The position numbers and the translations under genes are program-made. A stretch of DNA of 10,585 nt from Alistipes sp. (GTDB taxonomy: Bacteria > Bacteroidota > Bacteroidia > Bacteroidales > Rikenellaceae). Below, in pieces: positions 1 to 10,140 of the stretch (positions are counted from its first letter, which is position 1; each line of letters starts with the position of its first letter). A model generated the notes under the pieces. The model did not search any database and had not been told where the DNA came from. It saw only the letters and a program-made list of their open reading frames with translations. The DNA is taken from positions 1 to 10,585 of the forward strand of contig JAFZDR010000153.1 of NCBI GenBank assembly GCA_017561105.1, in the 5' to 3' direction.

Positions 1-67
1 AAATTAAAAGCTAAAAATTATTTGGTGGCGGGCAGAAAATTGTGGTGTTTACTATAAGTAACCTCAC

Positions 68-99
68 AAAAAAAGACGAAAGATTTTTCATCTCTCGTC
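68..99 (-). terminator. Rho-independent terminator built from heptad repeats
   Basis: Read on the minus strand, GACGAGAGAT pairs with ATCTTTCGTC across a GAAAA loop. This gives a 10-bp stem with one G-U wobble, followed directly by seven T. It lies 26 bp past the stop codon of the phosphoesterase gene and is well placed to end the der-phosphoesterase transcript. The left arm belongs to the GACGARA repeat array and the right arm is an inverted copy of the same repeat, so terminator and repeat share sequence. Confidence 0.8.
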
Positions 100-120
100 T
101 TTCGTTTCTCGTCTTTCGTC
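86..120 (-). repeat. GACGARA heptad array, 5 units, after phosphoesterase stop
   Basis: On the minus strand five 7-bp units lie head to tail: GACGAAA, GACGAGA, AACGAAA, GACGAGA, GATGAAA. The array starts 4 bp after the TAA stop at 127-125. It is the same family as the arrays at 4953-4987, 8252-8272 and 10049-10062, and like those it reads purine-rich on the sense strand of the gene it follows. Confidence 0.85.
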
Positions 121-124
121 TAAC

Positions 125-1288
125 TTAGAAGCTGTATTTATCAAGCTGTTTGCCGTCGAAATTCTCTACCACAACATCCATATTGGAGTGGTTTGCGCGG
201 ATACTTACAAGTGTTGCACTTCCATTCTCAAGAATTGGGAAGCTACACTTCTTGCCCGCCTTGTGCATCTCAGTGTTGTGGGTATAACCGCAAATCATAA
301 GGTTGATACCAGCCTCCTCCAACATTGGAACGAAGAGTGCGTGTAGATCCTTGCTTACAGGCGCAACACCCGCAACAGGCGGAATGTGCATCAAAGCAAC
401 CTTGAACTTCGCACCCTTAACCTCCTCGCTCTGCAAAGCCTTAGCCAACCACTCTGCCTGCTCCTTGCGGTATGCCTCGAAGTCGTTACCCGTAGCCTTA
501 TCCTTCTTATCGCAGCCCGAATCGAGCACAATAAAGCAGGTCGAGCCGTAACGAACAGTGTAGTATGGCTTGCCGGTTGTAGAAGGGAACTGATTCATAT
601 AGTTCATTCCAAGCTTGCCAACCGACTCGTTTACGCCGCGTACCATATAACAAGGTACCTCGTGGAGCGGAGTCTCTGCATTCTTAAGGTTGATGCAACG
701 ACCCGAGAGATTGTGGTACACCGACAACTTCTGCTTTTCCGACTCCGATGATGCCATATCGCCACAGAAGAGCACCGCGTCGGTCTTCTTGCGATTTACG
801 CGCTTATTGAGCAGCTCGATTGCACCGCTATTGCCATGCTGATCGTTCATAAGCACAAACTCTACCGACTCTTTGTTGTAGTCGAGAGTTTTAACATAGA
901 TGTGTCGATAAGCATAGATGCGAGTCGATGCTACACGACCATACATTGTGCGACCGCTCTTATTGCTGGTAATCTCCTGCGAGAATGCACGGTAGCGGAA
1001 TGTTGTCGAACCATCGGTGTTTGGGTTCGGAATGGTAATCGAGTGCAACTTGGTTGGCAACTTGCGACCAAGCACTGTCTGATAGAACTTAGGACGCTCC
1101 TCGCCATAGAAGTGCGACTTGTCGTTTGGTGCAGTTTCAACCCACGAAATAGCTGTCGCATCGGTACCCCAAACGATAGTAACACTATCCTTGGTTACCG
1201 CCTGAACATAGGGACCGTAGGTGATTTTAATCGCAAATGCCGAGGTTGCTACCACGAGCATCAACGCAAGTGTAAAGACTCTTTTCAT
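125..1288 (-). CDS. Secreted calcineurin-like metallophosphoesterase with altered active-site motifs
   Basis: 387 aa from the ATG at 1288. A longer frame to 1360 exists, but it would overlap the 3' end of der and hide the signal peptide (MKRVFTLALMLVVATSAFA). Residues about 22-108 look like the fibronectin-III-like N-domain of purple acid phosphatases (ITYGPYVQAVTKDSVTIVWG). Residues about 142-387 form a calcineurin-like phosphoesterase domain with NDQH (D149, H151), CGD (D177) and a histidine in LMHIPP (H301). Two canonical motifs are changed: GNHE reads GVNE (218-221), and GHxH reads GYTH (334-337), so a metal-bridging Asn and a metal-ligand His appear to be lost. It starts 23 bp after der and is probably co-transcribed with it. 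The family hydrolyses phosphomonoesters or diesters; the substrate cannot be told, and activity is uncertain given the changes. Export to periplasm or cell surface is inferred from the signal peptide. Confidence 0.85.
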   Translation of the reverse strand: MKRVFTLALMLVVATSAFAIKITYGPYVQAVTKDSVTIVWGTDATAISWVETAPNDKSHFYGEERPKFYQTVLGRKLPTKLHSITIPNPNTDGSTTFRYRAFSQEITSNKSGRTMYGRVASTRIYAYRHIYVKTLDYNKESVEFVLMNDQHGNSGAIELLNKRVNRKKTDAVLFCGDMASSESEKQKLSVYHNLSGRCINLKNAETPLHEVPCYMVRGVNESVGKLGMNYMNQFPSTTGKPYYTVRYGSTCFIVLDSGCDKKDKATGNDFEAYRKEQAEWLAKALQSEEVKGAKFKVALMHIPPVAGVAPVSKDLHALFVPMLEEAGINLMICGYTHNTEMHKAGKKCSFPILENGSATLVSIRANHSNMDVVVENFDGKQLDKYSF

Positions 1289-1311
1289 TATCTTAGGCGT
1301 TAGTTTTTTTA

Positions 1312-2616
1312 CTATTTTTGGCGGAAGTAGATCTGGATTGGCACACCCGCAAAATCCCAATGCTCACGCAAGTGGTTTTCCAAGAATCGGCGATAGTTCT
1401 CGCGGATATACTGCGGCAGATTGCAGAAGAACACAAACTGCGGAGTAGGTGTAGGCAACTGCATCGCATACTTGATGCGGATATACTTACCCTTGGTTGA
1501 TGGTGGCGGCGTCTCCTCGATAATCGGCAACATGTAGTCGTTGAACTCCGATGTAGGGATACGACGCGAACGCGACTCGTAAACACGAATTGCAGTCTGC
1601 AACACATCGAGGATACGCTGCTTGTTCAAAGCCGAAGTAAAGATGATAGGAATATCGTTGAATGGCGCAAGGCGCTTCTCGAGAGCCTCTTTCCACTCCT
1701 TCATGGTGTTGTTGCTCTTCTCGATCAAGTCCCACTTGTTCACTACGATAACACAGCCCTTGCGGTTACGAACGATAAGGTTGTGGATATTCAAATCCTG
1801 CGACTCGAGGCCCTGCTGAGCATCGAGCATCAAGACACAGACATCCGAAGCCTCGATAGCGCGAATAGAACGCATCACCGAGTAGAACTCCAAATCCTCC
1901 ATGGTCTTACCCTTCTTACGCATACCTGCAGTATCGACCAAATAGAAGTCCATGCCGTACTTATTGTAACGGGTATGGATAGAGTCGCGGGTTGTTCCTG
2001 CGATATTGGTTACGATATTGCGATCGCGACCAAGCAGAGCGTTGGTCATAGACGACTTACCTACATTTGGACGGCCCACGATAGTGATGCGTGGAAGATC
2101 CTCCAACTCCTCAGCCTCGCAATCCTCAGGGAGGTGCTTCAAGATCTCATCCATCAAATCGCCTGTACCGCTACCCGACATCGACGAGATGCAGAACGGA
2201 TCACCCAAGCCGAGCGAATAGAAGTCGTTCGACGAGTAGATCAAGTCGTAGTTATCTACCTTATTGCAGACGAGGATTGTGCGCTTTTTTGCACGGCGCA
2301 ACACCTCAGCCATCATCATATCCAAATCGGTAACGCCTGTGCCTACCTCAACCATAAAGAGGATAACATCAGCCTCCTCGATGGCGAGCATTACCTGCTT
2401 GCGAATCTCATCCTCGAAGATATCGTCGCTATTGACTGTATAACCTCCGGTGTCGATAATCGAGAACTCTCGTCCGCACCAGTCGGTCTTACCATAATGA
2501 CGGTCGCGGGTTGTTCCTGCCGTCGAATCGACAATCGCCTGGCGATTACCCACCAAGCGGTTGAAGAGTGTACTTTTGCCCACATTTGGGCGTCCTACTA
2601 TTGCTACTAAACTCAT
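1312..2616 (-). CDS. der: Ribosome-associated double GTPase Der (EngA)
   Basis: 434 aa, normal for the family. There are two consecutive GTPase domains. The first has GRPNVGKS (8-15), DTGG (55-58) and NKVD (118-121). The second has GRPNVGKS (181-188), DTAG (228-231) and NKWD (293-296). A KH-like domain from about residue 355 ends in IQIYFRQK. Der binds the 50S subunit during late assembly and is essential in most bacteria; this is family knowledge. All nucleotide-binding motifs are intact. The ATG at 2616 fits the universal [15 protein letters not shown] start and lies about 14 nt from the expected transcription start of a TACCTTTG promoter. The phosphoesterase gene follows 23 bp downstream, so this housekeeping gene leads a two-gene operon. 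Confidence 0.98.
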
Positions 2617-2637
2617 AAAGTCGCTATTTTACGGCTG

Positions 2638-2645
2638 CAAAGGTA
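2638..2645 (-). promoter_or_regulatory. Bacteroidetes -7 promoter box for der
   Basis: TACCTTTG on the minus strand (2645 to 2638) matches the Bacteroidetes consensus TAnnTTTG and is followed by the commonly seen GCAGCC. The predicted start near 2631 leaves a leader of about 14 nt. I see no convincing -33 TTTG at the usual distance; the sequence there is a run of T in an A/T-rich stretch. Confidence 0.7.
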
Positions 2646-2665
2646 CTAAAATTTAGTTAGAAAAC

Positions 2666-2681
2666 ATTATCTAAAGATAAT
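2666..2681 (-). terminator. A/T-rich hairpin after rhodanese gene, possible weak terminator
   Basis: ATTATCT-TT-AGATAAT on the minus strand is a perfect 7-bp dyad starting 8 bp after the rhodanese stop and followed by GTTTTC. The stem has only one G-C pair and a tiny loop, so as a terminator it would be weak. It also lies just upstream of the der promoter, so it could be an operator instead. Confidence 0.35.
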
Positions 2682-2688
2682 ATTTTTT

Positions 2689-3060
2689 CTATCGCTCGAG
2701 TTCGCCCTGCCAGCTGAGGATTCCGCCATCGAGTTCCACCACCTTAAAACCGAGTTTTACAGCCTGCTCGGCAGCGCTCTTGCTGCGACGACCACTACGG
2801 CAGTAGAGAGCCACCGTTTGTTTCTTATCGAGCTTTGCTATCTGCTTGGCAAAATCGGGCTGATAGACATCTACATTCACCGCATTCGGGATATGACCAT
2901 TTGCATACTCCTCGGCAGTTCGAACATCTACGAGTTGCACTCCAGACTTTGCAATTTCGCGTGCAAATTCGTCGGCATCAACCGACACAAAGCCCTTTGC
3001 AGTGCAACCAAAAATGGCACACAAAGCTGTAAAAATCGACATAAGAATAACTTTTTTCAT
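2689..3060 (-). CDS. Rhodanese-like domain lipoprotein
   Basis: 123 aa. The start at 3060 (MKKVILMS) is chosen over an in-frame ATG at 3078, which would sit at the predicted transcription start. Residues 1-18 form a lipoprotein signal peptide ending IFG-C19, so the mature protein is probably lipid-anchored on the periplasmic side or at the outer membrane. Residues about 24-123 are a single rhodanese domain: LVDVRTAEEYANGHIPNAVNVD, then the active-site loop CRSGRRS with catalytic Cys87, ending in LDGGILSWQG. Single-domain rhodaneses carry sulfane sulfur as a Cys-persulfide; the partner here is unknown. A clear -7/-33 promoter precedes it and it appears to be transcribed alone. An arsenate-reductase-like or phosphatase-like role is less likely, because the six-residue loop after Cys is rhodanese-sized. 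Confidence 0.92.
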   Translation of the reverse strand: MKKVILMSIFTALCAIFGCTAKGFVSVDADEFAREIAKSGVQLVDVRTAEEYANGHIPNAVNVDVYQPDFAKQIAKLDKKQTVALYCRSGRRSKSAAEQAVKLGFKVVELDGGILSWQGELER

Positions 3061-3086
3061 AATATAATTTGAGTTCAATTGTGTAG

Positions 3087-3118
3087 CAAAAATAGGTTAT
3101 TTCCGACGAATTAGCAAA
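3087..3118 (-). promoter_or_regulatory. Promoter of the rhodanese lipoprotein gene
   Basis: On the minus strand a TTTG -33 box (3118 to 3115) and a TATTTTTG -7 box (3094 to 3087) are separated by 20 nt, matching the Bacteroidetes sigma-ABfr promoter layout. Transcription is expected near 3080, giving a leader of about 20 nt to the ATG at 3060. Confidence 0.75.
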
Positions 3119-3178
3119 TATGCGCGCCATTTTTTACCACCTCCATTATGGCGGCATACCCAGAGCCTTGCGACATCG

Positions 3179-3197
3179 TTTATATATTATATATAAA
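3179..3197. promoter_or_regulatory. 19-bp A/T-only dyad in divergent intergenic region
   Basis: TTTATATAT-T-ATATATAAA is a perfect dyad of 9-bp arms around one T. It lies between the divergent rhodanese and barrel-protein promoters, 38 bp upstream of the latter's -7 box. It could be an UP-like element, an operator or a region of easy melting. Function is not shown by sequence alone. Confidence 0.35.
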
Positions 3198-3235
3198 AAT
3201 AGGGGCTGAAAGTTTTTAGTTTCAAAAATAATTGC

Positions 3236-3243
3236 TATTTTTG
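3236..3243 (+). promoter_or_regulatory. -7 promoter box immediately upstream of the barrel protein gene
   Basis: TATTTTTG matches TAnnTTTG. The expected transcription start (about 3249-3251) falls at or next to the ATG at 3252, implying a leaderless or nearly leaderless message. A T-run at 3213-3217 is the only -33 candidate. Confidence 0.6.
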
Positions 3244-3251
3244 GGGTGAAT

Positions 3252-3992
3252 ATGAGATATAGATTTTTAATTTCTACAATTATAGCGTTTGCGCTCTCGA
3301 GTGCAACGGCTTTTGCGCAGAGCGACTACGATTCGTACGACTACCGCGTAAATGCAAACTACGCCCGCAAAACCGTAAACAAGGCTCTCGCCAATCAGCA
3401 GCCCAGGGTTACAACCGAGTTCGGTTTGGGCATTGGTGTTCGCTACAACTTCTTCGATGTTATAGATATGAAAGGGGCCTTTTCTCCTAATATCACGATG
3501 AATTTATCGTATGGAGCAGCCTTGCAGTTCCGCCTCAACCTCGGCAGAACATTCGGCATTCAGCCCGAGATTTCGTACGCCTACTCTACGGTAAAGCTCA
3601 AGGGTGGCGAGATAGGCTCCACAATCAAGGCAAAATCGAACCTGGTGCAGATTCCGTTTCTGCTCTCGTTCCGCATAGCGATTGTGCGCATCAACTTCGG
3701 TCCCGTATTTACGGTTATGGACAACCCGTCATACATGCTTCCCGATTTGACAGAAGATTCGATAAAGACTTGTTACCTCGGCAACCTCTACCCTGCGGTA
3801 ACCTATGCTGCGGGTTTGAGTTTTAAACTGCCTAAAAATATGATGATTGATGTGCGCTATGCCGACCAATTTAAGGATATCAAGAAGGTAAACGAGTTCC
3901 TCTGGACGCTTGACGCGAACAAGCAGAGCGAACCTATAACATTCCGCACACGCACTCGTAGTGTTCAGCTGCGATTTGGTTTAGTATTCTAA
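3252..3992 (+). CDS. Outer-membrane beta-barrel protein (PorT-like family)
   Basis: 246 aa from the ATG at 3252. A GTG six bases earlier (3246) lies inside the promoter region and is disfavoured. Residues 1-24 are a signal peptide (MRYRFLISTIIAFALSSATAFA). The rest is a series of alternating amphipathic strands with glycine/aromatic turns (FGLGIGVRYNFF, YGAALQFRLNLGRTFGIQPEISYAYS, AAGLSFKLPKNMMIDVRYADQF). It ends in a typical outer-membrane C-terminal strand with final Phe (VQLRFGLVF). The pattern suggests about eight strands, as in the small barrel proteins Bacteroidetes genomes carry in number. No substrate or enzymatic motif is visible. phoH follows after only 9 bp, so the two are almost certainly co-transcribed. 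Confidence 0.85.
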   Translation: MRYRFLISTIIAFALSSATAFAQSDYDSYDYRVNANYARKTVNKALANQQPRVTTEFGLGIGVRYNFFDVIDMKGAFSPNITMNLSYGAALQFRLNLGRTFGIQPEISYAYSTVKLKGGEIGSTIKAKSNLVQIPFLLSFRIAIVRINFGPVFTVMDNPSYMLPDLTEDSIKTCYLGNLYPAVTYAAGLSFKLPKNMMIDVRYADQFKDIKKVNEFLWTLDANKQSEPITFRTRTRSVQLRFGLVF

Positions 3993-4001
3993 TTTACGAT
4001 T

Positions 4002-4994
4002 ATGACCGATACTACAGGAAAAGAGATATTTATCGAGGGTGTAGATACCCGCGAGCTGTATGGAGCCAAGGAATGCTACCTGCAGCAGATTGTGGCCATG
4101 CACCCCAAATTGAAGATTGTGGCACGAGGCTCGGCACTCAAGGTGCTCGGTGCCAAGGGCGATGTGGAGCGATTTGAGCGCCAGATGGCGGGTTTGATTG
4201 CCTACTACGACCGCTACGGGCACATCTCGAAGGAGGTGGTTGAGCAATCCTTCGCAACGGGTTTTGCCGAGGCGGCAGAGCAGGCACACAAGAGCGACAA
4301 AGAGGTTATCGTCTATGGTAACAATGGTGTAATTGTCAAGGCACGCACCGACAACCAGCGCAAACTTGTCGATCTCTACGACCACAACGACCTTATCTTT
4401 GCGACGGGACCTGCGGGTTCGGGTAAGACCTATACGGCTATTGCTCTTGCGGTACGCGCCTTGCGCGACAAGCAGGTACGCCGAGTAATTTTAACGCGCC
4501 CAGCTGTCGAGGCGGGCGAGAAGTTGGGTTTCTTGCCGGGCGACTTAAAGGATAAGCTCGATCCATATTTGCAGCCTCTCTACGATGCGCTCAACGATAT
4601 GATTCCGCCTGCAAAGTTGCAGAAGTTTATGGAGGATGGCACGGTGCAGATTGCGCCACTTGCCTATATGCGTGGTCGTACATTGGATAACGCCTTCGTA
4701 ATTCTCGACGAGGCGCAGAACACCACCCTATCGCAGATTAAGATGTTCCTCACCCGCATGGGTCGCAACGCAAAGTTTATTGTTACGGGCGATGTTACGC
4801 AGGTCGATTTGCCGCACAAGAGCGATAGCGGACTGGTGCGTGCAATGAATACCGTCAAGGGTATCAAGGGGATCGGCTTTGTGGAGTTCAACAAGGGTGA
4901 CATCGTGCGTCACGAGCTGGTTAAGCATATTGTCGAGGCGTTCGATAAGCAAGACGAAAGACGAGAGACGAGAGACGAAAGACGAGAGAAATAG
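4002..4994 (+). CDS. phoH: PhoH-like ATPase with repeat-encoded C-terminal tail
   Basis: 330 aa. An N-terminal KH-like region of about 100 residues precedes the PhoH P-loop ATPase domain. This domain has Walker A GPAGSGKT (136-143), the family signature RPAVEAGEKLGFLPGD (166-181), Walker B VILDEAQN (233-240) and a sensor-like TGDVTQVD (262-269). This is the cytoplasmic YbeZ/PhoH type, linked in other bacteria to RNA metabolism and phosphate or stress response; its exact role is unsettled. Here it follows an outer-membrane barrel gene rather than ybeY. The normal domain ends near FDK (314-316). Residues 318-329 (DERRETRDERRE) are translated from five 7-bp GACGARA units, a repeat that is non-coding elsewhere in the window. 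The tail is therefore probably an addition created by the repeat. Confidence 0.95.
   Translation: MTDTTGKEIFIEGVDTRELYGAKECYLQQIVAMHPKLKIVARGSALKVLGAKGDVERFERQMAGLIAYYDRYGHISKEVVEQSFATGFAEAAEQAHKSDKEVIVYGNNGVIVKARTDNQRKLVDLYDHNDLIFATGPAGSGKTYTAIALAVRALRDKQVRRVILTRPAVEAGEKLGFLPGDLKDKLDPYLQPLYDALNDMIPPAKLQKFMEDGTVQIAPLAYMRGRTLDNAFVILDEAQNTTLSQIKMFLTRMGRNAKFIVTGDVTQVDLPHKSDSGLVRAMNTVKGIKGIGFVEFNKGDIVRHELVKHIVEAFDKQDERRETRDERREK
4953..4987 (+). repeat. GACGARA heptad array inside the 3' end of phoH, 5 units
   Basis: Five perfect tandem 7-bp units: GACGAAA, GACGAGA, GACGAGA, GACGAAA, GACGAGA. It ends 4 bp before the TAG stop codon (4992-4994). This is the only array of the family that is translated. 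A 7-bp unit is not a multiple of three, so a change in copy number would change the reading frame. Stop codons occur soon after in all three frames, so only the tail would be affected. Confidence 0.95.
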
Positions 4995-5004
4995 AATAGA
5001 GGAT

Positions 5005-5041
5005 ATTAGCGGCGATTAGCGGCAATTAGCGGTGATTAGCG
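5005..5041 (+). repeat. 10-bp tandem repeat ATTAGCGGYR, 3.7 units
   Basis: Units are ATTAGCGGCG, ATTAGCGGCA, ATTAGCGGTG and a partial ATTAGCG, in direct head-to-tail order, 10 bp after the phoH stop. The core GCTAAT on the opposite strand is shared with the heptad array at 6590-6624. It is followed by an A-rich stretch (AAAAAGAAAAAAA). Confidence 0.9.
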
Positions 5042-5057
5042 AAAAAGAAAAAAACAC

Positions 5058-5097
5058 TAATACCCCCTAACAACCTCTAATAACCTTTAACAACCCC
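5058..5097 (+). repeat. 10-bp tandem repeat TAAYAACCYY, 4 units
   Basis: TAATACCCCC, TAACAACCTC, TAATAACCTT and TAACAACCCC follow each other with a strict 10-bp period, 30 bp before the pepD start codon. This is C-rich on the sense strand and unlike the flanking codon use. No TAnnTTTG promoter box is visible between phoH and pepD, so pepD may depend on read-through or on an unrecognised promoter. Confidence 0.8.
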
Positions 5098-5127
5098 TAT
5101 AAAACAAACTACAAAACAATAACGACT

Positions 5128-6576
5128 ATGAATTACAATTTGGAACAGCTCAAACCTGAGTTGGTTTGGAAACACTTTAAGGCAATTTGCCAGATTCCTC
5201 ACCCATCACACCACGAGGAGAAGATTCGCGAGTATGTTGTAGCTTTTGCAAAGGAGCACAACCTCGAATACTCGGTTGATGAGGCTTGCAATGTTTATAT
5301 CGCAAAACCCGCAACACCCGGCTATGAGGGTCGCAAGGGTATCGTTTTGCAGGCTCACCTCGACATGGTGCCACAGAAGAACAACGATAAGGTTTTCGAC
5401 TTTGAGAATGACCCTATCGAGGCATATATCGACGGCGATTGGGTAACCGCCAACGGTACTACTCTCGGTGCCGACAACGGTATCGGTGCAGCTTGTATCC
5501 TCGCAGTATTGGAGGACAACAGCTTGGAGCACGGTGCTATCGAGGGCCTCTTTACAGCTACCGAGGAGACAGGTATGGATGGTGCCTTCGGTCTTAAGGG
5601 CGGATTGCTCAAGGGCGATATTCTCTTAAATCTCGACTCGGAGACTGAGGGCGAGTTGTATGTTGGTTGCGCGGGCGGTACCGACGCAAACATCACACTC
5701 CCATACACTGCAGAGGCTGCACCTGAGGGTTGGAGCGCAGTGAAGCTCGAGGTTAAGGGCCTTAAGGGCGGTCACTCGGGTATTCAGATCGGCTTCCAGC
5801 GTGGTAATGCCAACCGTTTATTGTGCCGTTTATTGCTCCACACCGAGCAGGAGTGGTTGCTCGCATCGGTTGATGGCGGTGGCTTGCGCAACGCTATCCC
5901 ACGCGAAGCTCAGGCTGTAGTTCTCGTTAAGGATGTTGCAGCATTCAAGGCTGAGGCTGCGGCATACGAGAAGACCTTGCAGTCGGAGTTCGAGAATATC
6001 GAGGATTCGATTGCGGTACTCGCAGAGGAGGTTGCCGTACCTGCAGAGATTATCCCTGCAGAGGTTGCCGTAAAGCTCGTAAAGGCGGTTGTTGGCGCAC
6101 CTAACGGCGTAGTGAAGATGTCGGTTGAGATGGAGGGCCTGGTACAGACCTCTACCAACCTTGCACGCGTGGTATCGAATGGCGAGTGCGTAAAGATTCA
6201 GTGTTTGTTGCGTTCGTCTGTTTCGAGCGAGAAGGTTGCCTTGGCTGAGGCTATCAAGGGTGTATTCGAGATGGCAGGTGCCGAGGTTGAGCTCTCGGGC
6301 TCGTACGACGGTTGGAAACCAAATATGGAGTCGCCAATTTTGAAGGCCATGTTGGCATCGTATGAGGCATTGTATGGCAAGAAGCCTGCCGTAACCGCTA
6401 TCCACGCAGGTTTGGAGTGCGGCATCATCGGCGGTGTTTACCCTAACCTCGATATGATTTCGTTCGGTCCTACTATCTGCTATCCTCACTCGCCTGACGA
6501 GAAGGTCGAGATTGCATCGGTTGCGAAGTTCTACGACTTCTTGCTCCACACATTGAAGAACGCACCGGCGAAATAA
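5128..6576 (+). CDS. pepD: Aminoacyl-histidine dipeptidase (M20C, PepD)
   Basis: 482 aa, the usual length of this family. Motifs of the M20C di-zinc peptidases are intact: QAHLDMV (metal ligand H77, D79), GADNGIG (bridging D116), TEETGMDG (general base E146, metal ligand E147), NLDSETEG (D170), and near the C-terminus PTICYPHSPDEK (H454). The insertion between about residues 185 and 400 corresponds to the lid/dimerisation domain. The enzyme cleaves a broad range of dipeptides with a free N-terminus, including Xaa-His, in the cytoplasm. No signal peptide is present. It lies in the same direction as phoH and the lipid kinase, but separated from both by short-repeat arrays (133 bp upstream, 51 bp downstream). 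The leader is A/C-rich without a Shine-Dalgarno sequence. Confidence 0.96.
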   Translation: MNYNLEQLKPELVWKHFKAICQIPHPSHHEEKIREYVVAFAKEHNLEYSVDEACNVYIAKPATPGYEGRKGIVLQAHLDMVPQKNNDKVFDFENDPIEAYIDGDWVTANGTTLGADNGIGAACILAVLEDNSLEHGAIEGLFTATEETGMDGAFGLKGGLLKGDILLNLDSETEGELYVGCAGGTDANITLPYTAEAAPEGWSAVKLEVKGLKGGHSGIQIGFQRGNANRLLCRLLLHTEQEWLLASVDGGGLRNAIPREAQAVVLVKDVAAFKAEAAAYEKTLQSEFENIEDSIAVLAEEVAVPAEIIPAEVAVKLVKAVVGAPNGVVKMSVEMEGLVQTSTNLARVVSNGECVKIQCLLRSSVSSEKVALAEAIKGVFEMAGAEVELSGSYDGWKPNMESPILKAMLASYEALYGKKPAVTAIHAGLECGIIGGVYPNLDMISFGPTICYPHSPDEKVEIASVAKFYDFLLHTLKNAPAK

Positions 6577-6589
6577 ATTGATAATAAAA

Positions 6590-6624
6590 GCTAATGGCTA
6601 ATGGCCAAGAGCTAATAGCTAAAG
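6590..6624 (+). repeat. GCTAATR heptad array before lipid kinase, 5 units
   Basis: GCTAATG, GCTAATG, GCCAAGA, GCTAATA and GCTAAAG lie in tandem with a 7-bp period, beginning 13 bp after the pepD stop and ending 3 bp before the ATG at 6628. The array therefore fills almost the whole pepD-kinase gap and would be the ribosome-loading region of the kinase message. Its core is the reverse complement of the ATTAGC core at 5005-5041. Confidence 0.85.
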
Positions 6625-6627
6625 AAT

Positions 6628-7572
6628 ATGTCAGAGCGTTGGTTTGTAATAGTAAATCCCATTTCGGGCGGAGGTAAAGGATTGACGGATTTTCCGAAAA
6701 TCTCGCACCTCCTCCGCGAAAGCGGTATAGAGCACGACCCTGTATTTACCGAGCATCGTTACCACGCCACCGAGTTATCTGTCGAGGCGGCAAATCGTGG
6801 CTACCGCAAGCTTATCGTTGTGGGTGGCGACGGCACTCTGAACGAGGTAGTAAACGGACTCTTCATCCAAAAGCAGTGCCAGCCTAAGGATATTCTTCTG
6901 GCGGTAATTGCCGTAGGTACGGGCAACGACTGGGTGCGCACATTCGGTATTCCGCGCAACTACTCGGCTGTGGTACGCGCCATAAAGGAGGGCCACTCCT
7001 ATCTGCAGGATGTGGGCAAGGTAACCTACACCGAGTCGAAGGTGCAGCAGACCCGCTATATGGCAAATGTTGCGGGATTGGGATTCGACGCCTATGTCAT
7101 AAAGATATTCAACCACCTCAAGCTCAAGGGTTACAAAGGCAAGTGGCTCTATATCTACAGTCTGTTGAAGGGCTACTTCACGGCTAAGCCTGCGGGCGTA
7201 ACCATCGAGGTTGACGGCAAGGTTATCTACAACCGACTGCTGCTCTCGCTGGCGGTGGGCATTTGTCGCTACAACGGAGGAGGTATTCAGCAGCTGCCGC
7301 GTGCCGTAGCAAACGACGGATTGCTCGACTTGACAATCATCCGCCCCGTACATTGGTGGCATGTGGTATTCCGCGCAAAGCGCCTCTTCAATGGCGACAT
7401 CTACTCGATAGGTCATATCCACCACGCGCAGGGCAAGGAGGTAAAGATTACATCTGCACCCCCAATTCCTGTCGAGACCGATGGCGAGTTGCAGGGAGTA
7501 TCGCCTGTATCCATATCGGTGGTGCAGCAGGCGATACGCTGTGTCGTAACAAAGGAGTTCCTGGAGAAGTAG
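6628..7572 (+). CDS. YegS/DagK-family lipid kinase
   Basis: 314 aa, typical length for the bacterial diacylglycerol/sphingosine kinase-like family (YegS, BmrU, DgkB). N-terminal nucleotide-binding half: VNPISGGGKG (9-18), VGGDGTLNEVVNG (65-77), GTGNDWVR (97-104). C-terminal lipid-binding half: NVAGLGFDA (147-155), YNGGGIQQLPRAVANDGLLDL (215-235) and ETDGE (283-287). These are the ATP and Mg sites and the conserved Asp of this fold. The family phosphorylates a membrane lipid at the cytoplasmic face using ATP; diacylglycerol or sphingoid lipids are both plausible in Bacteroidales, and sequence alone does not decide. The start is fixed by MSERWFVIVNP. A lipoprotein gene follows after 59 bp in the same direction. 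Confidence 0.93.
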   Translation: MSERWFVIVNPISGGGKGLTDFPKISHLLRESGIEHDPVFTEHRYHATELSVEAANRGYRKLIVVGGDGTLNEVVNGLFIQKQCQPKDILLAVIAVGTGNDWVRTFGIPRNYSAVVRAIKEGHSYLQDVGKVTYTESKVQQTRYMANVAGLGFDAYVIKIFNHLKLKGYKGKWLYIYSLLKGYFTAKPAGVTIEVDGKVIYNRLLLSLAVGICRYNGGGIQQLPRAVANDGLLDLTIIRPVHWWHVVFRAKRLFNGDIYSIGHIHHAQGKEVKITSAPPIPVETDGELQGVSPVSISVVQQAIRCVVTKEFLEK

Positions 7573-7599
7573 CGGAGTTGGCACGAAGGTTGCGATTCA

Positions 7600-7633
7600 A
7601 TCGTGTGGTTTAACTTTTTAATTTCTACACGAT
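7600..7633 (+). promoter_or_regulatory. Hairpin covering the start codon of the lipoprotein gene
   Basis: ATCGTGTGG (7600-7608) can pair with CTACACGAT (7625-7633), nine pairs with one G-U. The 16-nt loop contains only one base other than A or T. The 3' arm includes the first two bases of the ATG at 7632. This might modulate translation, but it may also be chance. No TAnnTTTG promoter is visible in the 59-bp gap. Confidence 0.3.
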
Positions 7634-8198
7634 GAAAAAACTACTTCTTTCAGTTGCCGTTGTGGCACTTATCCTGGGTGGTGTATTCGCTTGTGGCGAG
7701 CAGACCAAGTGGAATCGCGAGGAGCGACAAGCTATGCGCAACCTACTGCGCGACTATCGCAAGATGGTCTATCTGAGCAACCTCACCGAGGCGGAGTATA
7801 TGCTCTTCACCGACCAGGTACTCGCCTCTATCGAGGAGGCCTACCCTACCTATACCACATTTATAGAGATGCCTGCCGTAAACGATACGGTACAGGTCTA
7901 TGTGGTAACTACGATTGTGGAGCAGCTGGCTGCCGATGCGTCGAATATGCGCCACCTCTACCCTTACCGCGACCTTGTGGCAGCGAACATTCTGCCCGAC
8001 GGATTGAGTCGCGGTCAGCAGAACGCCTTCTATCAGTGCTTTGCCAATGCGGTGGATAACACCTACAGCAATGCCGAGCAGTTGGTCAATGCAATAGTCG
8101 CCGACACGGTACAGACATCACAAATTGCGCAAATGCAATCGAATTGCGCCAACGAACTCTTCGGTTGGACGGTTGAAATAATAGAGGTAGGCAATTAA
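7632..8198 (+). CDS. Putative lipoprotein of unknown function
   Basis: 188 aa. Residues 1-20 are a lipoprotein signal peptide with lipobox VFA-C21, so the protein is probably lipid-anchored in the envelope. The mature part is acidic and rich in predicted helix (EERQAMRNLLRDYRKMVYLSNLTEAEYMLFTDQVLASIEE), with two further cysteines (in YQCFAN and SNCANEL) that could form a disulfide. I do not recognise a family or catalytic motif. It follows the lipid kinase in the same orientation and its gene ends inside a strong hairpin: the TAA stop is in the hairpin loop. Codon use matches the neighbours, so it looks native. Confidence 0.8.
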   Translation: MKKLLLSVAVVALILGGVFACGEQTKWNREERQAMRNLLRDYRKMVYLSNLTEAEYMLFTDQVLASIEEAYPTYTTFIEMPAVNDTVQVYVVTTIVEQLAADASNMRHLYPYRDLVAANILPDGLSRGQQNAFYQCFANAVDNTYSNAEQLVNAIVADTVQTSQIAQMQSNCANELFGWTVEIIEVGN

Positions 8199-8214
8199 GC
8201 CTACCTCTATTATT
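8177..8214. terminator. 16-bp perfect hairpin containing a stop codon in its loop
   Basis: AATAATAGAGGTAGGC (8177-8192) and GCCTACCTCTATTATT (8199-8214) are perfect inverted repeats around a 6-nt AATTAA loop. The TAA stop of the lipoprotein gene (8196-8198) is in the loop, so the 5' arm codes for IIEVG. It lies between convergent genes and can act on both strands. No long T tract follows, though the 3' arm itself ends in a U-rich stretch. Confidence 0.7.
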
Positions 8215-8218
8215 ATAG

Positions 8219-8239
8219 TGAGTAGTGAGTAATGAGTAG
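8219..8239 (-). repeat. YTACTCA heptad array, 3 units
   Basis: On the minus strand CTACTCA, TTACTCA, CTACTCA in tandem. It follows the GACGARA array of the GH2-like gene after a 12-nt A-rich spacer. The same order of modules is found on the plus strand at 10049-10104. Bases 8235-8241 can also pair with 8246-8252 (AGTAGTT/AACTACT, loop TTTT). Confidence 0.85.
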
Positions 8240-8251
8240 TTTTTTAACTAC

Positions 8252-8272
8252 TTTCGTCTCTCGTCTTTCGTC
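8252..8272 (-). repeat. GACGARA heptad array, 3 units, after GH2-like gene
   Basis: On the minus strand GACGAAA, GACGAGA, GACGAAA, beginning one base after the TAA stop (8276-8274) of the GH2-like gene. It has the same orientation relative to its gene as the other three arrays of this family. Confidence 0.9.
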
Positions 8273-8273
8273 T

Positions 8274-9563
8274 TTACTTGTCCGTTGCCCACTCGCCCTT
8301 GGCTCCGTCGTAGATAACAAGGTGGTTTGGAACGAGCGACTTCAGCATAAGATAGCTATCGTAGATATTCACGCCCGATGTCTTACCCTTAGCTATGGAG
8401 TAGCCTATAATTGCGCAGTTGCCCTGCGTGGAGTGCAAGGTGTGAAGGTTGCGCCACAAGTAGCTCTCGCTCCACAACAAATCGTTGCTTGGGTTGCCAC
8501 CGCGGCGGATATGATCGCCCAACGAAGTAGTATCGATAGGTGCGCGCACCACAACATATAGTCCTCGCTTTGCGCACTCCTCTACAACGCGCTCGGCACC
8601 GCGGTTAAGCGTGAGAATAATGCCGTTATATCCAAACTTAACAGCATCATCAAGCTCTCTCAGCGCCTCCCACTCCACAAGGTTTGGGGTTACTATCTCA
8701 TTGTTAATACGCAACTTACCATCCTCGAGTGTCATCTCGCGCAAGCCCACCATCTGCGATACGCACTCGGCTGTGCGGTTATCAATCTTACTCTCCAAAT
8801 CGAGGCGCAGGCGTGTAGGATTCTTCGCACTCCACAACGCCTTGCTTGGTACTACACACGCGAAGCGCAGCGTATCCTCGCGACGCATATCGAGAGCCAA
8901 CTCGCGGTATCCCTCGGCTACAACCAACGAATCACCCATACGGAGCGTATAGTGCAGACGCAGTTCCTTGCGGTTGAGTGCGTTACACTTTACAGGTATT
9001 GCAAACTCGGCGATACCCTCGCCCGAAGCATTGAGTGTGGTCTTGGCGATAACATCGCGCAGGCGGATTGTAGGCTGCGAGAAGACCTCAACGCCCTCGA
9101 CCACCATCTTCGATGCCGAGAAGAGTCGGTTTGCCGCATGTGAGAGGTCAAGCACAATCGTAACCTCGTTGCGACCCTCCTGCGAGGCCTTGGTGATATT
9201 AAACTCGGCACCCATAGCTCCCGTAGGGGCAAAGCCCACCTCGCGGCCATTGACATAGACCGTATAGGCTGTCGATGCGTAGTTTATGCGGAGAATAGTC
9301 TGACGATTGAGCCACGCCACAGGTTGTGCAAAGTGGGTGGTAAAGGTTGTGGATGTACCCTTATCGCTACGCTCGAGCTCCTCGACTACCGCAACAAAGC
9401 GCGACTGCGAAGCATCACCTGCAACGGCTGTTGCGAGGGTGTGGTACGGGATTGTACGCTTACGCGCAGGCTCCACGCCACGCGCCGAGAGGTCGTACGG
9501 CTCTTGAGCCGATGCGACAATGGCCGAAAATAATATAGCGACAAAAAGTGTGTATCTCTTCAT
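8274..9563 (-). CDS. Secreted GH2-like protein lacking catalytic residues (probable pseudoenzyme)
   Basis: 429 aa. Signal peptide MKRYTLFVAILFSAIVASA. Residues about 30-165 resemble the GH2 sugar-binding jelly-roll domain (TAYTVYVNGREVG, EGRNEVTIVLDL). About 166-275 is the immunoglobulin-like domain (PTIRLRDVIAKTTLNASGEGIAEFAI to LRLDLESKID). From 276 there is a shortened TIM-barrel segment in which GH2 landmarks can be followed (LEDGKLRINNE, FGYNGIILT, CAKRGLYVVVRAPID). The acid/base motif normally written SLGNE reads SIAKG (389-393), so the catalytic Glu is Gly. The protein ends 36 residues later, before the nucleophile Glu would occur; full GH2 enzymes are about twice as long. The frame is intact and the array after the stop leaves no remnant of a lost part. 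It is probably a secreted carbohydrate-binding or accessory protein. Alternatively it could be a decaying gene. Confidence 0.75.
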   Translation of the reverse strand: MKRYTLFVAILFSAIVASAQEPYDLSARGVEPARKRTIPYHTLATAVAGDASQSRFVAVVEELERSDKGTSTTFTTHFAQPVAWLNRQTILRINYASTAYTVYVNGREVGFAPTGAMGAEFNITKASQEGRNEVTIVLDLSHAANRLFSASKMVVEGVEVFSQPTIRLRDVIAKTTLNASGEGIAEFAIPVKCNALNRKELRLHYTLRMGDSLVVAEGYRELALDMRREDTLRFACVVPSKALWSAKNPTRLRLDLESKIDNRTAECVSQMVGLREMTLEDGKLRINNEIVTPNLVEWEALRELDDAVKFGYNGIILTLNRGAERVVEECAKRGLYVVVRAPIDTTSLGDHIRRGGNPSNDLLWSESYLWRNLHTLHSTQGNCAIIGYSIAKGKTSGVNIYDSYLMLKSLVPNHLVIYDGAKGEWATDK

Positions 9564-9572
9564 AATTTTTCG

Positions 9573-9580
9573 TATCTTTG
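9573..9580 (+). promoter_or_regulatory. -7 promoter box for the HsdR_N-domain gene
   Basis: TATCTTTG fits TAnnTTTG, with expected start near 9587 and a leader of about 26 nt to the ATG at 9614. It faces the minus-strand box at 9584-9591; the two form an 8-3-8 dyad with a single mismatch. Confidence 0.65.
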
Positions 9581-9583
9581 TGG

Positions 9584-9591
9584 CAAAGGTA
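9584..9591 (-). promoter_or_regulatory. -7 promoter box for the GH2-like gene
   Basis: TACCTTTG on the minus strand (9591 to 9584), same sequence as the der box. The expected start near 9577 lies within the opposing -7 box and gives a leader of about 13 nt to the ATG at 9563. The -33 region shows no clear TTTG. Confidence 0.55.
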
Positions 9592-9613
9592 CAATTTATT
9601 TCGATAAATCGCT

Positions 9614-10048
9614 ATGTCCGAGCAGATAAAACTATGTTTTCCGCCCATATCAGCCCGAATGAAGGATGATAATGGCGAGAAGTACATATGGGACCCACTC
9701 CGCCAAAAGTGGCTCTTACTCACTCCCGAGGAGTGGGTGCGCCAGCATGTTATCGGTTGGCTTGTGGGTGTGCGCGGCATACCGCAACTGCGCATATCGC
9801 AGGAGTACCCTGTCAATATCAACGGTCAGCGTCAACGTGCCGATATTGTAGTTATCGACGAGTCGGCCAAACCCCACCTGCTTGTGGAGTGCAAGGCTCC
9901 TGAGGTGGCTATCGACAACGAAGTGGTGATGCAGGCAATGCGCTACAATGCTATCGTGGGCGCACGCTTCGTGCTCCTAACCAACGGCATTAAACTCTAC
10001 TGCTACGAGCACTGCGACGGAAAATACCGAGCAGCAACGACATTCTAA
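9614..10048 (+). CDS. Stand-alone HsdR_N (PD-(D/E)XK nuclease-fold) protein
   Basis: 144 aa with no helicase part, whereas type I restriction HsdR subunits are about 1000 aa. The fold motifs are those of the HsdR N-terminal nuclease domain: an N-terminal helix with E40/E41 (TPEEWVRQHVIGWL), RADIVV with D77, LLVECKAP with E92 and K94, then QAMRY (Q107, Y111), the QxxxY motif of RecB/HsdR-type nucleases. All presumed catalytic residues are kept. Short proteins of this kind are annotated in Bacteroidetes without a restriction system, and here no hsdM/hsdS gene is nearby; their role is not established. A structural or DNA-repair nuclease role is a guess. No signal peptide, so cytoplasmic. It has its own promoter, divergent from the GH2-like gene, and ends at a GACGARA element followed by a strong terminator. 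Confidence 0.82.
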   Translation: MSEQIKLCFPPISARMKDDNGEKYIWDPLRQKWLLLTPEEWVRQHVIGWLVGVRGIPQLRISQEYPVNINGQRQRADIVVIDESAKPHLLVECKAPEVAIDNEVVMQAMRYNAIVGARFVLLTNGIKLYCYEHCDGKYRAATTF

Positions 10049-10062
10049 TACGAAAGACGAGA
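10049..10062 (+). repeat. GACGARA heptads, 2 units, after HsdR_N-domain gene
   Basis: TACGAAA and GACGAGA directly follow the TAA stop (10046-10048). This is the shortest array of the family in the window. Orientation relative to the gene is the same as in the others. Confidence 0.75.
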
Positions 10063-10104: not shown

Positions 10105-10105
10105 C

Positions 10106-10138
10106 AAAAAAAGAGAGCCTCATCGGCTCTCTTTTTTT
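10106..10138. terminator. Strong bidirectional Rho-independent terminator
   Basis: Seven A, GAGAGCC, loop TCATC, GGCTCTC, seven T form a perfect 14-bp inverted repeat with a T tract on both strands. It serves the convergent HsdR_N-domain gene (plus) and GH2 beta-galactosidase gene (minus, stop at 10143-10141). Confidence 0.95.
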
Positions 10139-10140
10139 CT

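Follow-up and report, generated by a model that had tools for sequence, protein, structure and literature searches.

The window, a 10,585-nucleotide stretch of Alistipes sp. DNA (contig JAFZDR010000153.1 of assembly GCA_017561105.1), carries four short tandem arrays of the heptad GACGARA, each at the 3′ end of a gene. Our best reading, to which we give about even chances, is that GACGARA is one of about eight dispersed, directionally placed heptad families (~30 to 35 bp, typically four units) of a ruminant-gut Alistipes clade. The arrays have a period of seven, a preferred length, ends locked in phase and copies that recur as whole blocks. GACGARA reads outward from genes at both edges, the contents of homologous slots turn over, and the arrays are restricted to the clade.

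GACGARA arrays point away from genes at both edges

The dimer GACGARAGACGARA (at most two mismatches) matched 12 times in the window against 0.25 expected, and none of 200 shuffles reached 12. The source genome (G000), a draft of 1.64 Mb in 246 contigs that is 69.6% complete, gave 65 matches (35 and 30 by strand) and none to a reversed-pattern control. Placement was scored in stretches around arrays from the source genome and five Alistipes relatives (G005, G049, G057, G070, and G078), 1.0 Mb in total and 87% called coding. Every genome compared is a draft, and genes were called with a custom codon-usage script. Each array was assigned by its nearest gene edge and was scored as outward if the GA strand reads away from that gene; orthologous arrays of different genomes were counted separately.

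The sample held 107 GACGARA arrays, 9 of them deep inside open reading frames (ORFs), 9 without a gene on one side, and 89 that were classified. Seventy-eight were outward, so that the nearest gene lay 5′ of the GA strand, and 11 were not (p = 1.4e-13). With only ORFs of at least 300 bp considered, the counts were 75 and 10; arrays farther than 60 bp from every gene were outward in 21 cases and inward in 7. By genome, outward arrays numbered 22/24 (G000), 24/26 (G070), 13/16 (G049), 11/13 (G057), 6/6 (G005), and 2/4 (G078). A first-pass annotation of the window had described the arrays as nonrandom, bound to gene edges and always sense to the preceding gene. This is true of all four window arrays, and the genome-wide distribution clearly respects gene strand and gene edge. 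Gene 3′ ends, however, account for only half of it: 39 outward arrays lay at STOP edges, where they are sense, and 39 at START edges, where they are antisense (14 and 8, respectively, in the source genome). The four stop-side arrays of the window are thus a draw from this split. One strand orientation for the two kinds of edge points to a cause at the level of DNA and not of mRNA.

Among 41 arrays with a same-strand gene end nearby, 27 began their first unit within −5 to +10 bp of that end, and for 11 the first array base was the last base of the stop codon. Codirectional, divergent, and convergent spacers held 62, 16, and 11 arrays, compared with 276, 94, and 69 spacers of at least 60 bp; by these plain counts, array occurrence has no visible dependence on the direction of the neighboring gene.

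Arrays share length, phase and whole blocks

When arrays were extended with mismatch tolerance, 61 of 103 had four units. A preceded the array in 93 of the 103 and G followed it in 92. Period 7 accounted for 85 tracts in 388 kb of G070; no other period between 4 and 13 had more than 14 (13 at period 9 and 14 at period 10, with the harmonic 14 set aside). An exact 28-mer, GACGAGA-GACGAAA-GACGAGA-GACGAGA, was present at 15 sampled G070 sites, whose mean pairwise flank identity 11 to 30 nt away was 0.28 on one side and 0.26 on the other. These identical blocks fit dispersal of blocks, partly within larger repeats, and not independent slippage.

Two further observations concern array surroundings. 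Composite arrays in G070 (loci L150, L160, and L161) consist of AATTGAC heptads, a T-run and then a GACGARA block, and two GACGARA blocks can also stand close together. At several source-genome sites (L038, L039, and L043), a longer dispersed repeat (accgacgctgcggagcgag...ccgcgagg) lies downstream of GACGARA arrays.

Other heptad families follow similar rules

Seven further heptads were found in the clade: AATTGAC, AACGGAA, GCTAATG, GAGTAGT, GAGAGTT, GCAAAAT, and TAAAAAT. Across all eight families the commonest length was about five rounded units (32 to 38 nt); for GCAAAAT, five units tied with six, and AATTGAC had a second crowd at two to three units. Counts for these families are no random sample, as the stretches from the relatives were chosen around GACGARA arrays, and the family definitions overlap, with GAGAATT arrays counted in both AATTGAC and GAGAGTT. 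Strand counts relative to the nearest gene were 60:10 for AATTGAC, 17:60 for GCTAATG (for which the complement is outward), and 23:5 for AACGGAA; like that of GACGARA, these biases hold after correction for eight tests. Weaker leans were seen for GAGTAGT (11:1), GAGAGTT (12:3), GCAAAAT (15:5), and TAAAAAT (25:12), with uncorrected p values of 0.006 to 0.05.

Many start-side arrays adjoin putative −7 boxes

In Bacteroidetes promoters, TAnnTTTG is the −7 element and TTTG the −33 element. For 22 of the 39 START-edge GACGARA arrays, a TAnnTTTG box separates the array, or all but its last two bases, from the start codon, and the array-to-box distance was exactly 3 nt in 12 of the 22. If the box is the −7 element, these arrays lie outside the transcript of the gene. 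TTG at −27 to −17 from the box was present in 61 of 116 array-free promoters (15 in a control window), compared with 12 of 50 promoters close to an array, whatever its family (5 in the control window), so arrays often sit in the −33 region. The GCTAATG family was found mostly in 5′ leaders ahead of start codons, and TAnnTTTG lay between GCTAATG and the start in 0 of 40 cases.

Array and −7 box may also have been copied as one piece, as a portable promoter. With up to one mismatch, GCAAAGATAATAAAAA had 14 sites in the source genome, 7 of which adjoin GACGARA-type arrays, and five of the six exact sites do so. The boxes at exactly 3 nt nevertheless vary (10 TATCTTTG, 1 TAACTTTG, and 1 TATATTTG), which speaks against this. 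Immediately after a START-side AATTCTC array comes a sequence that by eye resembles a thiamine pyrophosphate riboswitch, which we take to be a candidate.

Homologous gene edges carry different heptads in related genomes

GACGARAGACGARA dimers were found in 17 of 150 genomes, the source included. Among the relatives, counts were 43 (G005), 177 (G049), 114 (G057), 160 (G070), and 13 (G078), with 6 in G068 and 5 in G058; counts of 6 or fewer prove nothing, because the reversed control reached 6 in one genome (G073). At 17 of 150 genomes, a general Alistipes feature was ruled out. The stretches of G019 held no period-7 tract, those of G007 two, of which one is a run of N, and those of G060 one. 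For loci chosen by phoH alone, a sample independent of the choice around GACGARA arrays, the nine near ones had 22 period-7 tracts in 62 kb and 71 more distant ones had 10 in 467 kb. The nine PhoH relatives (95 to 98% identity) are metagenome-assembled genomes of Alistipes or Rikenellaceae, mostly from ruminants where a source is stated.

Contents of three slots were scored by eye. At the phoH stop, GACGARA was present in the source and two of nine relatives, ACGGAAA as one clear array and two traces, ATTGACA in one relative, and nothing in three. A second slot, the stop of a YitT-family gene that precedes a gene for a UPF0004-domain (MiaB-like) protein (Pfam), carries GACGAGA six times in the source, four times in G057, and three times in G049; other heptads take its place in G068 (GAGAGTT), G070 and G087 (TTAGCCA type), and G078 (AATTGAC/AATTTAT), and the slot is empty in G005, G047, and G058, as it is in three more distant genomes (G154, G030, and G043). 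At the promoter of a RadA-like gene (by Pfam domains), promoter heptads were present in three of seven readable clade genomes: TCTCGTC ×4 in the source, GTTTTCC ×4 in G047, and a TTAATTC type in G049. Only GCTAATG-type leaders were seen in G005, G057, and G087, and in G058 the gene closely follows another gene.

Over 756 edge-by-genome cells, 101 pairs of homologous edges were both filled, compared with 46 (standard deviation, 7) after shuffling within genomes, although this co-occupancy can partly reflect spacer room. Twenty-eight of the 101 pairs shared a family, versus 10.7 expected with families re-dealt. The first arrays at homologous edges were outward in 129 cases and reverse in 26, with 14 arrays of other heptads excluded from the count. 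Thirteen same-family pairs had array identities of 0.88 to 1.00, and the 40 nt beyond were 0.60 to 1.00 identical, so an array is often where conservation ends on the side away from the gene. A clean 72-nt presence/absence separates G049 from G057 at the stop of a gene for an S1/P1-nuclease-like protein; the flanks are 95.7 and 96.7% identical. The 72 nt comprise (GACGAGA)6 and about four AAATGCA units.

Window arrays and their secondary uses

The first-pass annotation was right that the four window arrays are real, as the dimer matches indicate, but two of them are partly degenerate. The array at 86-120 (−) has five units, two perfect (107-120) and three degenerate, and lies 4 bp past the stop (125) of a metallophosphoesterase gene, 125-1261 (−). 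The array at 4953-4987 (+) has five perfect units. It had been placed over the phoH stop codon; it lies instead inside the 3′ end of the phoH ORF (4002-4994), where it encodes an DERRETRDERRE tail and makes up most of the protein tail QDERRETRDERREK. Three perfect units at 8252-8272 (−) follow by 1 bp the stop of gene 8274-9563 (−), and at 10049-10062 (+) one perfect unit and TACGAAA (one mismatch) abut the stop (10048) of an ORF with an HSDR_N_2 domain.

By folding, the 86-120 array forms a terminator-like hairpin (68-110, −) with an inverted GACGAAA copy (75-81) and a T-run (68-74). The predicted fold of window 66-124 (−) reaches −18.7 kcal/mol (z = −3.5), which none of 200 shuffles equaled, and a simple terminator scan did not list this hairpin. 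A stem followed by a T-run, as in intrinsic terminators, is present here and not in the arrays overall: only 8 of 103 had an exact inverted copy (at least 6 bases, at most 45 bp downstream), in 4 cases together with a T-run, and the RNA of the phoH array folds to 0 kcal/mol. Some arrays serve secondarily, as 86-120 does in its terminator-like hairpin and as ORF-end arrays do by lengthening proteins.

How the arrays may arise

The alternative that the first-pass annotation had offered, debris left by a process that generates repeats and targets gene ends, fits these data best. We infer a copying or end-extension process that would join preformed blocks, always in one direction, to the DNA end on the gene side. 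Judged from the array junctions, which suggest both this direction and an A/T-rich target, the process would act where an edge is rich in A/T, on the A of TAA/TTA for stops and on ATAATAAAAA beside −7 boxes. Unit number would later drift through slippage, and some copies could be recruited as stems of terminators, as DNA upstream of promoters or as C-terminal tails. Neither GACGARA nor AATTGAC has G runs, yet both follow the outward rule, which favors preformed blocks placed directionally, with slippage afterwards. A common function at mRNA 3′ ends is unnecessary for this explanation.

Several observations weigh against such a process. AAAAATT tracts had no orientation bias (7 versus 8, in a first classification), and at homologous edges 26 of the 155 first arrays were inward, 12 of these 26 belonging to the GCTAATG family and 9 of those 12 lying at stops. 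The fixed 3-nt spacing from −7 boxes (12/22) could equally reflect selection. The flanks of the 15 identical G070 blocks are partly shared: CAATTTTT..A precedes five blocks, TTGTTGGTGGGGACTCTGA follows four, and each of two pairs has another downstream stretch in common. Larger repeats may thus have carried some of the spread. The 72-nt indel gives no direction of change, as among the fetched loci only G049 and G057 hold it. Unit number varies between sister species (three versus four at the yitT stop; about 1.5 versus 4.5 for AACGGAA), so slippage acts too. Finally, no writing enzyme or donor was found: the Y1 transposase domain (Y1_Tnp) was present in none of 10 clade genomes and in 1 of 96 genomes searched, and an RVT_1 reverse transcriptase was found in 4 of 10 clade genomes (G047 and G068, with weak matches in the source and G058) and was absent from the array-rich G005, G049, G057, and G070, which are 85 to 91% complete drafts. 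As candidate writers, the transposases associated with repetitive extragenic palindromes (RAYTs) and reverse transcriptases are not supported by these distributions.

The strongest competing explanation, possible but not likely, is that selection keeps the arrays as transcription boundaries. Inbound polymerases, whether running antisense in from the 3′ side or reading through into the promoter, would transcribe the pyrimidine strand, (UCUCGUC)n, into an unstructured C-rich RNA like a Rho utilization site. This gives a single rule for both edges, the inward strand has more C than G in GACGARA, AACGGAA, GAGTAGT, and GAGAGTT, and homologous edges are co-occupied above the shuffled level, although that may reflect nothing but spacer room. 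The composition fits only some families, however: the inward strand is not C-rich in AATTGAC, GCAAAAT, and TAAAAAT and is rich in G in GCTAATG. Nor are arrays visibly enriched where they would face incoming transcription, with 32 codirectional and 16 divergent cases at START edges (base, 276 versus 188) and 30 codirectional and 11 convergent at STOP edges (base, 276 versus 138). Cyanobacteria, to our knowledge, have no Rho. Yet the G-rich Nostoc heptads share the layout (PMC4692102). A rather less probable arrangement has two separate functions, with TCTCGTC replacing the −33 box upstream of promoters and GACGAGA serving as a 3′-untranslated-region or terminator element. The lock to the −7 box, the scarcity of −33-region TTG at array-bearing promoters and the terminator-like fold of window 66-124 agree with it, but the same coincidence would be required in several unrelated families, and inverted copies accompany just 8 of 103 arrays.

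Slightly more doubtful again is an extension of directional block addition, drawn by analogy, in which a heptad-writing machinery would extend gene-side DNA 3′ ends from a short species-specific template, as telomerase does, and would cap both gene edges with ~30-nt blocks; heptads of Xanthomonas and Nostoc would then be of the same kind. Templates that differ between species would leave different heptads in the same orientation in homologous slots. The first-pass annotation had preferred a transcript 3′-end element that acts through end protection, Rho, RNase or an RNA-binding protein. The 39 outward arrays that are sense at stop codons agree with this; we nevertheless regard it as quite improbable, since equally many are antisense at START edges (22 of these 39 with the box toward the start), unrelated heptads take over in sister species, inverted copies are rare, and the phoH array RNA has a predicted fold of 0 kcal/mol. 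Plain replication slippage of 7-nt units without dispersal has the poorest prospects. It would account for copy numbers that vary among sister species, but not for identical heptads, unit pattern and end phase at dozens of sites or for the excess of period 7 far above 5, 6 or 8.

Relation to known heptad repeats

The closest parallel is with the GGGNATC and GGGGA(C/T)T heptads of Xanthomonas and Nostoc. According to Rehm et al. 2015 (PMC4692102), these are mostly intergenic, prefer four units, are linked to G-quadruplexes, and lie at most 50 bp from an ORF, antisense on its upstream side or sense by its stop; stability is increased around the repeats, which occupy mostly the same gene pairs with much variation in length and sequence. 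GACGARA likewise has a nearby ORF on its 5′ side whatever the orientation of the ORF (78/89) and prefers four units (61/103). Unlike those heptads, GACGARA has, judged from its sequence, single Gs only, so that a G-quadruplex is not expected, and the Alistipes clade has many coexisting families that replace each other in homologous slots. The same source mentions heptanucleotides of Calothrix.

The first-pass annotation knew of no such element in Bacteroidetes, which was too strong: TAACTGA direct repeats occur in Beggiatoaceae, Cyanobacteria, and five Bacteroidetes (MacGregor 2015, PMC4679880). They, too, are intergenic heptad direct repeats with a patchy distribution among relatives. In the main genome of that report, TAACTGA is mostly forward just before starts (PMC4679880), which is like GCTAATG and unlike GACGARA. 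GACGARA has a different unit, reads outward at both edges, and is not a TAACTGA repeat.

The heptamers of cyanobacteria are named short tandemly repeated repetitive (STRR) sequences. As tandem heptanucleotides dispersed over many intergenic sites, the GACGARA arrays belong to this STRR, or heptameric simple sequence repeat, class, and several families per genome are a further likeness. We know of no gene-edge rule for STRR heptamers. Repetitive extragenic palindromes are palindromic and associated with a Y1 transposase (RAYT); GACGARA is similarly short, dispersed, and intergenic but is not palindromic, and Y1_Tnp was found in none of the 10 clade genomes. Nor is membership among elements written by reverse transcriptase supported, given the array-rich genomes without RVT_1.

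Among the matches listed in the open literature, no paper dealt with heptad arrays in Alistipes or Rikenellaceae. The conjectures that we found published for bacterial heptamer arrays are slippage and G-quadruplexes (PMC4679880, PMC4692102). The Alistipes clade is a natural experiment, with several families in the same slots, mostly in one direction and with fast turnover. This argues that G-quadruplexes or local slippage alone fall short on the placement rule and the four-unit preference, and comparison of closely related genomes makes the question of placement testable. The arrays also alter promoters, where the −33 box is often missing, as well as stop codons and protein C termini.

Other features of the window

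Two of the other heptad families are represented in the window. GCTAATG-family heptads at 6585-6622 (+) lie in the leader of a diacylglycerol-kinase-like gene (start, 6628), and GAGTAGT-family heptads at 8216-8240 (+) are outward, 17 bp past a stop at 8198. Downstream of the 10049 array, a strong hairpin with a T-run at 10105-10140 (−19 kcal/mol; z = −6.6) looks like an ordinary terminator between convergent genes. An Rfam search of the window gave no match. The small protein encoded at 9614-10048 has the HSDR_N_2 domain, the N terminus of type I restriction R subunits; no restriction-modification partner was found among the seven window proteins scanned. The spacer between phoH and a peptidase gene contains a repeat class of period 10, with ATTAGCGGCG-like and CTAACAACCT-like decamers at 5005-5041 and 5057-5099. 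Comparable decamers are also present in G049 and G070 spacers.

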